38,937 nt of DNA from Candidatus Cloacimonadota bacterium (GTDB lineage: Bacteria > Cloacimonadota > Cloacimonadia > Cloacimonadales > Cloacimonadaceae): positions 1 to 38,937 of the forward strand of contig JAJBAY010000008.1 in the NCBI GenBank assembly GCA_020532515.1. Direction: 5' to 3'. This document shows, piece after piece, positions 3,478 to 8,819 of the stretch. The notes beneath the pieces were generated by a model, which made no database searches, had not been told where the DNA came from, and worked only from the letters and a program-made list of their open reading frames with translations. The position numbers were made by a program, and so were the translations under genes. Numbering within the stretch: position 1 is the stretch's first letter; every line of letters starts with the position of its first letter.

Positions 3478-4725
3478 TTAACTATTATCTGCGATATAGT
3501 TTGTGAGCAGAGAGAGGCAATGCACATAAGAGCCGAGCTCGTTATCGTACCAGCCAAAGATTTTGGCGTGGGTCACCGGCATGCCCAGTTCTTTGTCTGT
3601 CTTTACGCCTTGCGCAGCCAGAGCTTCCGGTGGGAAGCTGATGAAGCCGGTGCGGGTATGGGTTTCATGGGCTTCCAGAGTTACAGCGGCTGTAGTGCCA
3701 ACGATATCAGCGGAGACGTTTTGTCTTTCACTATAGACCAGGAGGCCTTTTTGGGCACCTTTGGCGGCATTGGCATAGACCTCGTTGAGCATATTGCGAT
3801 TGATCAGAGGCTCGCCCAGCTCGTCCAGCTCGGTATAGAAGGTAGCATTGAGGTTTATGAGCGACACCGTATTAGTAGGTATGCGAACGCTATCCGCCAT
3901 AAAGCCGATACGTTTCACCTCAGGCATTACCAGTTCCAGCGCTTTGGTGGCACCGGTGGTCGAGAGAATGATGTTATTGATCATGCTGCGGGATTTCCGC
4001 AGGTCTGTAGCTCCGGCTTTGGGCACGTTATCCAAAATGGATTGGGTATTAGTAGAGGCATGGATGGTGCTCATGGAAGCGGTGACGATTCTGGAGGTGA
4101 GTTTGTTTTCCATCAAAGGCTTCATCATGTGCGCCAAACCAGTGGTGGTGCAGGATGCAGCGGAAATGATGTGATGTTTTGCGGGGTCATAATTCAGATG
4201 ATTGATGCCAAAGATCATGGTTGTGGCATCATCGGGCATGGAGGCTGCGCCTTTGATCTTGAAAGGGGCACTGGCAATAACTTTCAGGGCACCGGAATCA
4301 AGGTGTCCGCGCAGGCAGGGTTTGCCGGATTCTGTGGACACGGTGGGGTCCAAAAATCCACCAGTGCAATCCACCACGATTTTCACGCCTTCATTCAGCC
4401 AATTGATGTCTTTGGGGTCCCGGGCTGTACGCAGGACTTTGATGGGGATGCCTTCGATGCTCAGGATTTGATTGTCTTTATCCAAAATCTTGATTTCGGC
4501 TTTCTTCCCCACCATTCCGTAGAGGAACTTGTGGATAGAGCCATAGTTGCTATCGTTTTCAATGGTCTGGATCAGATCATCGAAGCTTTTGCCGACCTCA
4601 CGTCCGCAATTTACTACGAAGCCATCGAAATGTCTTAGATGGATTTGTTTCCACAACAGTAGTTTTCCGATTCTGCCCAGGCTGTTGATGCCCAGCAGGT
4701 TTTTGTTGCGTAAGCTTAGATTCAT
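3478..4725 (-). CDS. gap: Glyceraldehyde-3-phosphate dehydrogenase (divergent, long form)
   Basis: Catalyses NAD(P)-dependent oxidation and phosphorylation of glyceraldehyde 3-phosphate in glycolysis, or the reverse, in the cytoplasm. The Rossmann motif GINSLGRIGK is at residues 12-21 (family consensus GINGFGRIGR). The catalytic Cys192 lies in SAASCTTTG (consensus SNASCTTN). His222 in IHASTNTQ is the general base. R281 in RIPTNTVSL contacts phosphate, and WYDNELGSY lies near the C-terminus. At 415 aa it is about 80 residues longer than ordinary GAPDH: roughly 40 extra before the catalytic Cys and 40 after. The ATG has AGGAGA eight bases upstream. It begins 32 bases after the stop of the PPDK-like gene, so the two are probably cotranscribed and end at the terminator at 3419-3451. 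The enzyme class is secure; cofactor preference cannot be read from the sequence. Confidence 0.9.
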   Translation of the reverse strand: MNLSLRNKNLLGINSLGRIGKLLLWKQIHLRHFDGFVVNCGREVGKSFDDLIQTIENDSNYGSIHKFLYGMVGKKAEIKILDKDNQILSIEGIPIKVLRTARDPKDINWLNEGVKIVVDCTGGFLDPTVSTESGKPCLRGHLDSGALKVIASAPFKIKGAASMPDDATTMIFGINHLNYDPAKHHIISAASCTTTGLAHMMKPLMENKLTSRIVTASMSTIHASTNTQSILDNVPKAGATDLRKSRSMINNIILSTTGATKALELVMPEVKRIGFMADSVRIPTNTVSLINLNATFYTELDELGEPLINRNMLNEVYANAAKGAQKGLLVYSERQNVSADIVGTTAAVTLEAHETHTRTGFISFPPEALAAQGVKTDKELGMPVTHAKIFGWYDNELGSYVHCLSLLTNYIADNS

Positions 4726-4757: not shown

Positions 4758-7700
4758 TTAAAATAGTGAATACACGCTTTGCAGGGGATAGTGTCCCAGG
4801 TAGATAGTTCCGCCGGTGGAATCCAGGGAGATCTTGTCTCCCGCTTTTAGCTGCACGTTTCCGATTCTGCAGGTGGAATTATCTTCATCCACAAAGAGGT
4901 CGCGGCAATTTACAATCCCGATCAAGCCCAAACGGGTCGCGGTTACTGCTGCGTGGGAAGTAACGCCGCCTCTGGAGGTTAAAAGTCCCTGACATTCAAA
5001 GAGAAGTGCCATGTCATCGGGCACAGTATCCGGTCTTACCAGGATCAAGGGGATATCCTGACCTTTGTAGAGCAGGATATCTTCTTCCCGAATCACGATG
5101 ATACCATTCATCGCACCTTTGCCAATGCCAATTCCAGTACCGATGCTCTGCAGCTTGGATTCTTTGTTGCCCAGGACCTTGTATTCCGGGCTTTTGCGGA
5201 TTACCTGGTTTCGAGTCTGGAGGATATACAGCTGTTCTTCCAAGGGGCCCTCAAAGGTAAATTCCATCTCCTGATGGGGATAGCGGCGCTCTTCAATGAG
5301 CTGTTTGGCATAGCGCAAAAGCGCTTGATACAAGGCGGGGAAATCCTTTTCCAATGATGCATCACCCTGTTGCCGGTTTCTTTCTGCTTCAGAAATGGGC
5401 AGAGTGTGCACCAGTCCTGCCACCACGTCTTCACCTTGACTGCAGAGGGTAAAATCCCCATTTAGACAGATGCCTGGTTCATGATGCCAATCCGCAAAAG
5501 TAAAGAGCACTCCGGTTCCGCTCTCCAAAGAGATATTGCCCATCACCATCTTTTGGATGATCACCGCTGTACCCCATTCTTCGGCGATATGGAGCTTGGC
5601 GCGATAGAGCCTGGCGCGGTCTGTATCCCAGCTATCCAAGACATGAGAGATGGCTTGATGGAGCTGCAAAAGGGGGTCCTGTTCAAAGGCTACATTGTGG
5701 CTCTCGAGCACAGCTTTATAATCCTGGGTCATAGCCTTCATCTGTTTATCGCTAAATTGAGTTTTGAGCTGAACGCCATATCGCTTTTTGTAATCTATCA
5801 TTACTCTATCAAATTCATCGCGGTCAATGTCATAGGCCATGCCCCAGCTTTGAATGAGACGGCGATAGCAATCCCAGGCTGTCCAGCCGTAATTATTCTG
5901 CTGGGACAGGCTCTCGGCGATCTCATCATTGAGTCCGATATTCAGGAAGGTATCCATGGCCCCGGGCAGGCTCATGGGGGCACCACTACGCACGGAAAAA
6001 AGCAAGGGGCGCTCTGGATTTCCAAATTCCAGATTTGTGTATTGTTCCATCAGTTTGAGGTTTTTTTGGAGCAGGCTGTAGAACTCTTTGGAGATATCGG
6101 GGTGAGTATTGATGATCTCGCGATTGCGAAAGAGATCGGTAGTGATCACAAAGCCCGGAGGCACAGGGAATTCGTATTGGTGCAAGCGCTTCAGGAAGAA
6201 GGCTTTGGAGCCCAGTAAGACCTGATTTTCTATCCTGGAATTGCGGGTGTAAAGATGGAAGAAAAGCCGATCCGGATCGTAAGACATCAGTTTGAAGATA
6301 TCCTCTTTGCAAAAGAGCTGGCGCATCTCGTTGAGAGCTTCCAAAATCCTGGTGATAAAGTTATCCAATCCTTGTACCAAAAAAGAAGCGCTAAGCAAAT
6401 TGCGGTAAAATTCCTCGGCAAAAATCTCTTTTTGCTGTCTGCTGCCCAGCTTCGCCTCCAATCTTGCAATTTGATGATCGTAAAATCGGTAATAGTATTC
6501 GTTGATGATCTCGTTCACGCTGTCTTTGAGCAGATTGAAGATATCCAGATACTGTTCCAGGCTGATATTGGAGACGTTTTGGACAGAGCTCAGCATTGCG
6601 ACTGCACTGCTAAAGGCGTCACTCGTGATCATTTCCTGCTCCATGGCGTAGTCATATATATCCAGGATGCGCACAATGCGGCGTAGCGTCTTGCCATTGA
6701 TATAATTGAGATTGAGCTGGTCTCTATTACGCTCAAAGAGGCGGCCGATTACATTTTCCAGCCTGAAGATCATGCCCATCGCTTCCAGTTTGGGTTCGCG
6801 GTAGATCCCGTACATCGAAGGTATGCCAGCGGCGATGTGGCGTTTGTAATAGATATTTTCCCAGGGGGTGGTGGGTTTGGGGTCCAGCACCTGTGTATTG
6901 AGCTTGCCGATGTATCCCAACATTTGCCGGATAGAGCTGTCATAGTCTCTGCGGTTCAGGCTGGTGCGCAGGCGGTTTTGCTCTTTGGCATCAAAAAAGC
7001 TGTAGCGGGTAAGGAACTTCACGATATCATAAGGGTCGAGGTTATATTTGTCCTTGAGCAAGAAGTGGCAGTAGCACAAGAGCTTCAGGCGTTTGGTATA
7101 ATAATCCTCTTCCAGGCCCCTGAAGATGATTTCCACTCTTTGCCAGGAAAGCGCCAGCAGCTCCGTATCGCTGAGCCCGATCTGGGCTAGAAAGGCATTC
7201 ACGGCCTCACTCTGGGCTTGGGTGCGTTTGTTTAAAGTCTTGATCTGCAGCCAGACATCCTCTGGGATAATCTTTTCGAGGGGACTGGGGTCCAGAGTGA
7301 CCCAATAGCGCAGAATTTTCTCTATGAGCGTGATATGAGTGTTGTTGCTCTCGGTATGCACCTGTTTGCGCAGGAAATGGATGAGCCGGTCTTTACGCTG
7401 GGAAAGTTCATCCAGATTCGTGCTGGCATCGCGTATTTCGCCTTCGGCTCCGATCTCGTTGAAGAAGACGGGAAACATTCTCAGCATGTGCTTGCTCTGC
7501 ACAAAGATGGGGCTGATGTCTGCACCTAAAAAGGCAGAAACATCCTTTTGAAAGAGGTCTGTATCGGCGATGAATACGCCTTTGCGGGTCATGCTGATGA
7601 TGGTGAAGGCAAGCAGGTCTTTGTTTTGCAGAGGATCGATGGCGATCAGCTCCAGCAGGATGCGCAGATGCTTCACGTGGTTTTTATCTACATCAATCTG

Positions 7701-8819
7701 CCAGTCGCTGGCGATGCGCACTTCTCCAGGGGAGGTAAAGCCGAGGTCTATGATCAGCTCGATGATTTTACGTTTCAAGTCCAGGTTAGAGCCCTTCAGC
7801 ACTGCTTTGCCGATGGTGTGCAGGCAATCCAGCACTATGCTCAGATGCGTCTTGCTAAAGGCATGCAGGGTTTCAAATACCGTATCCAGCATTTGGGATA
7901 CTTCGTCTGGCGTGAGCTCTTCATAGAGATTGGCCAATTGCCGGTTTAGATCCCACAAAAGGTGATCCATGAGATCGATCATGGTGGGTAGGCCCAAAAG
8001 GAAGAAGATGTATTGCACCCGATGGCTGAGATGGGGAAATTCGCTGATATAATCGCGATGCAGACTGGCAATTTCAGAAAAGGCGGGCACTGCTTTCAGC
8101 TCATCAGCGCTGGTGGCTGCTTTTACCACTTTCTGCCAATGCTCGTAAAAATCATCTGAAGGGAGGCGCGAGGTGTCCATGTCTTCCGGCTTATCTTGCA
8201 GGTGACTGAGCCAGGAATTGATATCGGTGCTCTTTTGCCAGTGAGACAGGGTTGCCTCCAGGAGCTGCCGCAAGATCTGGAGACTGCGGTCGTTATCTGG
8301 AGTTTTTTGCTCGAGCTTTATCAAGGCTTTGCGGGCCACGCTGCTGAGGCGGATAAACAGGAATTCATGGGCCTTGTAAAAAGCCTCAATCATGTCTAAA
8401 ACACGATCAAATATCGCTGGTAGAGGGTACTCACAGAGGGCCGAGCAAAACTCCAGAAAGTCCTGGAAGAGCTTCTTGTACTGCTCATCCTTTGTGCACA
8501 CAGTTTCCACTTTGTTATAGAAATCCAGGATCACATTCAGTGCTCTTTCGGCCTCCGTGCGGCCACAAAACCACCAGAGATCGCCCAAAATGCTCGTTCG
8601 CATCAGGGACAGGGCGATACCAGGGTTTACAAAGGGGTGATACAATTCATCCAAAAAGGCGCGCAGGCGTTGATTGACCCCATAATAATCACTGGAAAGA
8701 TCCAGTAACCATTTGGCAGAGTCATCCAGCTGGACCTCTATCACCCTGGTATTCTGAAGGTTCACGGTTAGAGCTTTTGATTCTATGCTATCCACTACCT
8801 TTTCCTTTAGTATTATCAT
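4758..8819 (-). CDS. Giant PPDK-like protein: ATP-binding and phosphohistidine domains, no PEP/pyruvate barrel
   Basis: A 1353-aa cytoplasmic protein. Residues 1 to about 865 are mainly helical and match no family I recognise. Residues about 867-1205 are the PPDK-type ATP-grasp domain: VLLGSKAFFLKRL, then FSVRSGAPMSLPGAMDT (about 941-957), SGTGVLFT (about 1100), QGEDVVAG (about 1128) and the closing LQTRN (about 1200). The swivelling phosphohistidine domain follows with GGVTSHAAVTATR, His1289 being the phosphorylated residue of the family. The protein ends about 64 residues later. Canonical pyruvate phosphate dikinase has a further TIM barrel of about 350 residues that binds PEP/pyruvate; it is absent here. 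The kinase half thus looks intact, but the acceptor is unknown and may be a partner protein or be recognised by the N-terminal region. ATG at 8819 is kept, although the ribosome-binding site is distant; a GTG nine codons in (RBS AAAGGA) is an alternative. Probably cotranscribed with gap. Confidence 0.8.
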   Translation of the reverse strand: MIILKEKVVDSIESKALTVNLQNTRVIEVQLDDSAKWLLDLSSDYYGVNQRLRAFLDELYHPFVNPGIALSLMRTSILGDLWWFCGRTEAERALNVILDFYNKVETVCTKDEQYKKLFQDFLEFCSALCEYPLPAIFDRVLDMIEAFYKAHEFLFIRLSSVARKALIKLEQKTPDNDRSLQILRQLLEATLSHWQKSTDINSWLSHLQDKPEDMDTSRLPSDDFYEHWQKVVKAATSADELKAVPAFSEIASLHRDYISEFPHLSHRVQYIFFLLGLPTMIDLMDHLLWDLNRQLANLYEELTPDEVSQMLDTVFETLHAFSKTHLSIVLDCLHTIGKAVLKGSNLDLKRKIIELIIDLGFTSPGEVRIASDWQIDVDKNHVKHLRILLELIAIDPLQNKDLLAFTIISMTRKGVFIADTDLFQKDVSAFLGADISPIFVQSKHMLRMFPVFFNEIGAEGEIRDASTNLDELSQRKDRLIHFLRKQVHTESNNTHITLIEKILRYWVTLDPSPLEKIIPEDVWLQIKTLNKRTQAQSEAVNAFLAQIGLSDTELLALSWQRVEIIFRGLEEDYYTKRLKLLCYCHFLLKDKYNLDPYDIVKFLTRYSFFDAKEQNRLRTSLNRRDYDSSIRQMLGYIGKLNTQVLDPKPTTPWENIYYKRHIAAGIPSMYGIYREPKLEAMGMIFRLENVIGRLFERNRDQLNLNYINGKTLRRIVRILDIYDYAMEQEMITSDAFSSAVAMLSSVQNVSNISLEQYLDIFNLLKDSVNEIINEYYYRFYDHQIARLEAKLGSRQQKEIFAEEFYRNLLSASFLVQGLDNFITRILEALNEMRQLFCKEDIFKLMSYDPDRLFFHLYTRNSRIENQVLLGSKAFFLKRLHQYEFPVPPGFVITTDLFRNREIINTHPDISKEFYSLLQKNLKLMEQYTNLEFGNPERPLLFSVRSGAPMSLPGAMDTFLNIGLNDEIAESLSQQNNYGWTAWDCYRRLIQSWGMAYDIDRDEFDRVMIDYKKRYGVQLKTQFSDKQMKAMTQDYKAVLESHNVAFEQDPLLQLHQAISHVLDSWDTDRARLYRAKLHIAEEWGTAVIIQKMVMGNISLESGTGVLFTFADWHHEPGICLNGDFTLCSQGEDVVAGLVHTLPISEAERNRQQGDASLEKDFPALYQALLRYAKQLIEERRYPHQEMEFTFEGPLEEQLYILQTRNQVIRKSPEYKVLGNKESKLQSIGTGIGIGKGAMNGIIVIREEDILLYKGQDIPLILVRPDTVPDDMALLFECQGLLTSRGGVTSHAAVTATRLGLIGIVNCRDLFVDEDNSTCRIGNVQLKAGDKISLDSTGGTIYLGHYPLQSVYSLF

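Follow-up and report, generated by a model that had tools for sequence, protein, structure and literature searches.

Dikinases are modular enzymes: the ATP-using half is fixed, the acceptor half sets the chemistry, and to our knowledge few acceptor domains have been described. We examined a gene of this superfamily in a Candidatus Cloacimonadota genome (assembly GCA_020532515.1), on a stretch of 38,937 nucleotides (contig JAJBAY010000008.1; hereafter the window), which encodes a protein related to pyruvate phosphate dikinase (PPDK) and is followed by a gene for a paralogue of glyceraldehyde-3-phosphate dehydrogenase (GAPDH), here called GAPDH-L. Among the closest described systems, rifampin phosphotransferase (RPH) and the two-component HpeHI illustrate that the acceptors which dikinases acquire can be very different (PMC4844700; PMC12167813). 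Mycobacterium tuberculosis VadK has lost the same barrel for phosphoenolpyruvate (PEP) or pyruvate that the window's protein lacks; it autophosphorylates, and a regulatory role has been proposed for it (PMC13400623).

A conserved dikinase without a PEP/pyruvate barrel

The original prediction had recognized a PPDK-like kinase with well-preserved ATP-grasp and phosphohistidine domains, no barrel and a large helical region of unknown type in front, a picture that holds in each of its parts. The gene, its domains and its neighbour lie as follows (window coordinates; residues are those of the dikinase):

4758-8819, reverse strand: barrel-less PPDK-like dikinase, 1353 aa (open reading frame and domain matches)
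6225-8819, reverse strand: residues 1-865, all-helical, fold unrecognized, proposed acceptor- or partner-binding part (model and searches)
7341-7565, reverse strand: residues 419-493, invariant block D419xD-LFQKD426, IGAEG460xxR463, H481F-RK485-H488xE490 (alignment, 61/61 at nearly all positions)
6795-6866, reverse strand: residues 652-675, beta hairpin with invariant K659-R660-H661 and GIPSMYG (model and alignment)
5205-6224, reverse strand: residues 866-1205, PPDK-type ATP-grasp with catalytic K872, R944, R987, E1186, Q1201 and R1203 (Pfam, phmmer and alignment)
4776-5147, reverse strand: residues 1225-1348, swivelling phosphohistidine domain with H1289 (Pfam, phmmer and alignment)
3478-4725, reverse strand: GAPDH-L, a 415-aa GAPDH paralogue and the next gene, 32 nt downstream of the dikinase

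Pfam detects PPDK_N at residues 912-1138 (95 bits) and PEP-utilizers at 1259-1336 (52 bits) and nothing else, PEP-utilizers_C having no match anywhere in the 1353 residues. PPDKs of the Protein Data Bank (PDB) align by phmmer at 866-1205 and 1225-1347, with H1289 corresponding to PPDK H455, and the score against the NCBIfam PPDK equivalog TIGR01828 (356 bits) is below its cut-off of 843. In an alignment of 61 full-length homologues—mostly from Cloacimonadota, the others from at least three further phyla—the equivalents of PPDK K22, R92, R135, E323, Q335, R337 and H455 are present in 61/61. A model of residues 395-1352 agrees: by Foldseek its kinase half matches PPDK (1kbl, E 4.9e-28) and its phosphohistidine domain matches 2fm4 and 1kbl. 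From residues and model alike, the kinase looks functional.

No PEP/pyruvate barrel was found within the dikinase gene, in the sequence downstream of it or as a gene of its own in the assembly. The protein stops shortly after its phosphohistidine domain, and in 16 family members sampled from several phyla the C-terminus lies 1-11 residues past the match to that domain; in the window the stop codon is followed, 32 nt on, by the start of GAPDH-L, which has a good ribosome-binding site of its own. The feared frameshift hiding a barrel is refuted by that close downstream start and by the barrel-less ends of the 16 homologues. Nor did the search for a stand-alone PEP-utilizing barrel yield a candidate: apart from two EI-like (ptsI) genes and an ordinary PPDK of which a contig edge leaves just the C-terminal half, the assembly encodes no barrel, which makes a separate partner barrel unlikely. 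The barrel-less architecture is thus genuine and conserved, and an artefact or a broken gene is ruled out. Two closely similar pairs of an EI-like and a glucose-6-phosphate-isomerase-like gene were seen on contigs C61 and C111 of genome G000 (L001, L002); they probably reflect two strains in the bin, not a duplication.

The survey of this architecture that the original prediction had proposed for Cloacimonadota recovered full-length homologues in many genomes of the phylum, and a profile of the N-terminus (A1, built from 43 full-length homologues) added full-length members from at least three other phyla. In a tree of the kinase, 16 sampled members form a single clade (100/100) on a long stem. 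Outside it fall ordinary PPDKs, one from a Cloacimonadota genome included, and other barrel-less kinases from plasmids; the barrel-less proteins of Mycobacterium avium, Rhodococcus, Methylocella and Aquabacterium lie outside it as well. VadK itself is not part of this tree, and both actinobacterial branches are long, so that the precise position of the barrel-less actinobacterial forms is uncertain. Judged by sequence, the dikinase is an unnamed, phylogenetically broad subfamily of the dikinase superfamily. In-frame stops were reported in some relatives (G004, G009, G007, G008); in the three genus-g2 copies read (L016, L018, L019) they lie just before the true start, which rules out recoding in these. 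Two plasmids, of Methylocella tundrae (L155:3053-6521) and Aquabacterium olei (L156:2960-6527), carry a barrel-less PPDK-like kinase of ~530 aa directly preceded by a 630-650 aa protein with a PhoU/DUF47-like C-terminus, an arrangement that may be a split dikinase accompanied by a helical partner of its own. Present data do not support kinship of the dikinase's N-terminus with this DUF47-type partner (hhalign probability 0.2%).

What stands in front of the kinase is, in a model of residues 1-870 built from the 43-sequence alignment (mean pLDDT 85, pTM 0.78), nearly all helix, with a single beta hairpin at 653-674. It is not a PEP/pyruvate barrel, a fold whose presence here had been named as a risk to the original prediction. 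Foldseek returned no match to PDB or viral proteins at E < 0.001; the top PDB matches, protein-binding solenoids such as exportins, reach TM-scores of at most 0.21, and residues 1-865 have no match in Pfam, NCBIfam, PDB sequences or plasmids. A known domain was therefore rejected, the Pfam, PDB-sequence, PDB-fold and viral-fold searches all being without significant match. Also rejected were a mobile-element origin (plasmids lack the N-terminus, and the phage matches listed touch the PPDK half only) and an anti-phage defence role (no PADLOC match).

Two blocks within this region equal the kinase site in invariance, across phyla, in the 61-sequence alignment: D419-x-D-LFQKD, IGAEG-xx-R463 and H481-F-x-RK-xx-H488-x-E490 form the first, and KRH-x-A-x-GIPSMYG at 659-671, on and around the hairpin, the second. 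A site for a phosphorylated substrate would be expected to show invariant charged and histidine residues of this kind, which makes the N-terminus the best candidate for the acceptor domain; both blocks may line one pocket, and that pocket would be the acceptor site.

A near-obligate GAPDH paralogue

GAPDH-L is found directly downstream at every dikinase locus that has downstream sequence, save in genus g143 and beside one decayed copy, across a gap of mostly 30-80 nt (two gaps are longer, ~480-520 nt). In a first sample of 387 genomes the dikinase occurs in 55, GAPDH-L in 57 and both in 54, and a second sample of 386 genomes, which partly overlaps the first, has 14 with the dikinase and the same 14 with GAPDH-L; these counts are not independent events, related genomes sharing ancestry, and the link recurs in several separate lineages. 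In nine g143 genomes both genes are present on different contigs. Contig edges or decay explain most of the mismatches: in G044 and G013 the dikinase end lies at a contig start, and in G088 the contig ends beside GAPDH-L, so that dikinase status cannot be judged. In G045 no more than residues 122-299 and 894-985 of the dikinase remain (L152:2677-3447), and GAPDH-L is gone, as if the pair had been lost together. By this pattern of genes GAPDH-L is a near-obligate partner of the dikinase. The original prediction had proposed a link to glycolysis from co-transcription with GAPDH in one genome; co-occurrence across phyla makes the tie far stronger than that, but the housekeeping GAPDH is not the partner, which is a divergent paralogue of 415 aa. 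Ordinary GAPDH is also encoded in nearly all module-bearing genomes, so GAPDH-L probably has a separate job. No paper describing the pair was found in the open-licence literature.

Like type I GAPDH (TIGR01534), GAPDH-L keeps its catalytic residues, with equivalents of Cys149 and His176 in 38/38 sequences, and its substrate-site residues Thr179, Arg195 and Arg231, which like Thr150 are kept in 38/38. It differs from type I GAPDH in being ~80 aa longer, in carrying CTTT (or CTTA) for CTTN—every GAPDH-L has T at the CTT-N position, and T or S at the D181 site—and in scoring 289 bits against a cut-off of 367. The NAD-selecting Asp after strand beta-2, present in 13/13 canonical GAPDHs of the same or related genomes, is found in 0/38 GAPDH-L, all 38 having N-x-G-R instead of the canonical N-D-L, a replacement that suggests a preference for NADP(H).

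A second copy of GAPDH-L lies in a glycolysis and glycogen cluster on contig C203 of genome G026 (L164:46-14422), on the same strand as genes for glycogen phosphorylase, GAPDH, phosphoglycerate kinase (PGK), triosephosphate isomerase (short), glucose-6-phosphate isomerase, PPDK, a PPDK regulator and phosphoglucomutase. Five loci, of which four belong to Cloacimonadota, have a further GAPDH-like gene (332-334 aa in the complete copies) immediately upstream of the dikinase, which is there flanked by two GAPDH paralogues (L036:12132-13133; L038:980 onward; L042:6845 onward; L039:9180 onward; L108:6661-7656). A few genes downstream of the module, at 375-1670 on the reverse strand of the window, is a gene for a protein with a type IX secretion C-terminal sorting domain.

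Candidate reactions of the pair

The sequences support the suggestion of the original prediction that phosphate passes to an acceptor other than PEP or pyruvate. We tentatively favour a phosphoryl-transfer and redox module in which the dikinase would act on a carboxylate and hand an acyl phosphate to GAPDH-L. ATP, with inorganic phosphate as in PPDK, would phosphorylate H1289, and AMP and pyrophosphate (PPi) would leave; the phosphohistidine domain would then swivel to the helical N-terminus, where the invariant D, E, H, R and K motifs would hold the acceptor, most likely a small carboxylate. The first candidate is 3-phosphoglycerate, for two reasons: in the GAPDH reaction it is the partner acid, and an AMP-forming counterpart of PGK would parallel PPDK beside pyruvate kinase. 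The product would be 1,3-bisphosphoglycerate (1,3-BPG), which GAPDH-L would reduce with NADPH. The net effect would be an AMP-forming bypass of PGK, related to PGK as PPDK is to pyruvate kinase; in reverse, AMP and PPi would yield ATP. In its full form—an AMP-forming 3-phosphoglycerate dikinase with a helical acceptor domain and a dedicated NADP(H)-dependent GAPDH paralogue, bypassing PGK in Cloacimonadota and at least three other phyla—we regard the proposal as unlikely to be right in every particular.

Autophosphorylation of H1289 and the direction of reaction are, like the acceptor role of the N-terminus and the NADP preference, predictions. Several points weigh against the proposal. The substrate is deduced from the partner GAPDH-L alone; no fold match, PDB or viral, supports the binding of a small molecule by the N-terminus; and the PGK of contig C203 is unlike that of relatives, so that the contig may be foreign or misbinned, although even if foreign it places GAPDH-L among glycolytic genes. 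Most module-bearing genomes encode PGK, so survival does not require a second route to 1,3-BPG, a point that argues against necessity and not against a directional bypass. The same distribution led us to reject the module as a simple replacement for PGK. In the window's own assembly, which is 93% complete, PGK had no match; in most of the window's order PGK is divergent and longer (~430 aa, 230-300 bits), and other families of the same class have an ordinary PGK (~400 aa, 540-570 bits).

The same chemistry might instead serve a different acceptor—glycerate or another sugar acid, a triose, an erythronate-type compound or a glycan—with GAPDH-L acting on the corresponding phospho-aldehyde or acyl phosphate. 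Compounds as distant as rifampin (PMC4844700) and hydroxyphenylethanones (PMC12167813) are indeed substrates of dikinases with new acceptor domains, and the substitutions at the CTT-N and D181 positions indicate an altered GAPDH-L pocket; yet Thr179, Arg195 and Arg231 of the substrate site are all retained, and the G026 cluster consists purely of glycolysis and glycogen genes. We hold this reading possible but lean away from it.

The principal alternative is a VadK-like regulatory kinase, which would autophosphorylate at H1289 and, by binding or phosphorylating them, control GAPDH-L or other enzymes of central carbon metabolism, its solenoid being a docking scaffold. The constancy of GAPDH-L as partner would suit such a role, as would the solenoid character of the top fold matches, but those matches are weak; the N-terminal motifs, clustered in sequence, charged and invariant, are closer to an active site than to a docking surface; and the family stands apart in the tree from the sampled actinobacterial barrel-less forms. 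On this evidence a regulatory kinase seems rather unlikely.

Improbable, in our estimate, is an ATP-yielding role in fermentation, by which GAPDH-L would make 1,3-BPG and the dikinase would turn the acyl phosphate, AMP and PPi into ATP. PPDK is reversible (PMC5371819), Cloacimonadota encode a PPi-dependent phosphofructokinase and a PPi-driven sodium pump (PMC8542988), and the residues checked for AMP/PPi chemistry are all conserved; against this, GAPDH-L looks NADP-type, which is commoner in the anabolic direction, and the same genomes hold a canonical NAD-type GAPDH. A disguised PPDK, its barrel hidden by a frameshift or provided in trans, would account for the plainly PPDK-type kinase half but is hardly tenable given homologues that are barrel-less too, the immediate start of GAPDH-L and the short inventory of barrel genes in the assembly.

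Relation to known dikinases

The pair suggests an uncharacterized step around lower glycolysis, and replaces a vague annotation, 'PEP/pyruvate-binding protein', with a two-protein system and a short list of testable substrates. Its centre is an acceptor candidate without recognizable fold that is common to several phyla and tied to one specific GAPDH paralogue. If the 3-phosphoglycerate reading is true, the PGK step of lower glycolysis can be bypassed with formation of AMP; if the regulatory one is, PPDK derivatives exert phosphohistidine control over central carbon outside actinobacteria as well.

With PPDK (1kbl) the dikinase shares the ATP-grasp, the swivelling phosphohistidine domain, the catalytic residues checked and the order of kinase and then His domain, whereas it lacks the C-terminal barrel, carries 865 additional helical residues in front and belongs to a separate clade. 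VadK (Rv1127c) and barrel-less PPDKs of the PRK05878 type have likewise kept the ATP-grasp and His domain and lost the pyruvate barrel, but VadK is without the large N-terminal region; the VadK paper makes no mention of GAPDH (PMC13400623). In RPH and HpeHI, as proposed here, a swivelling histidine serves an acceptor domain for something other than pyruvate. The order in RPH is ATP-grasp, acceptor, His (PMC4844700), whereas in the dikinase the ATP-grasp and His matches are ~20 residues apart, with no acceptor domain between them, and the candidate acceptor is N-terminal and of unrelated fold, Foldseek finding no RPH fold in it.

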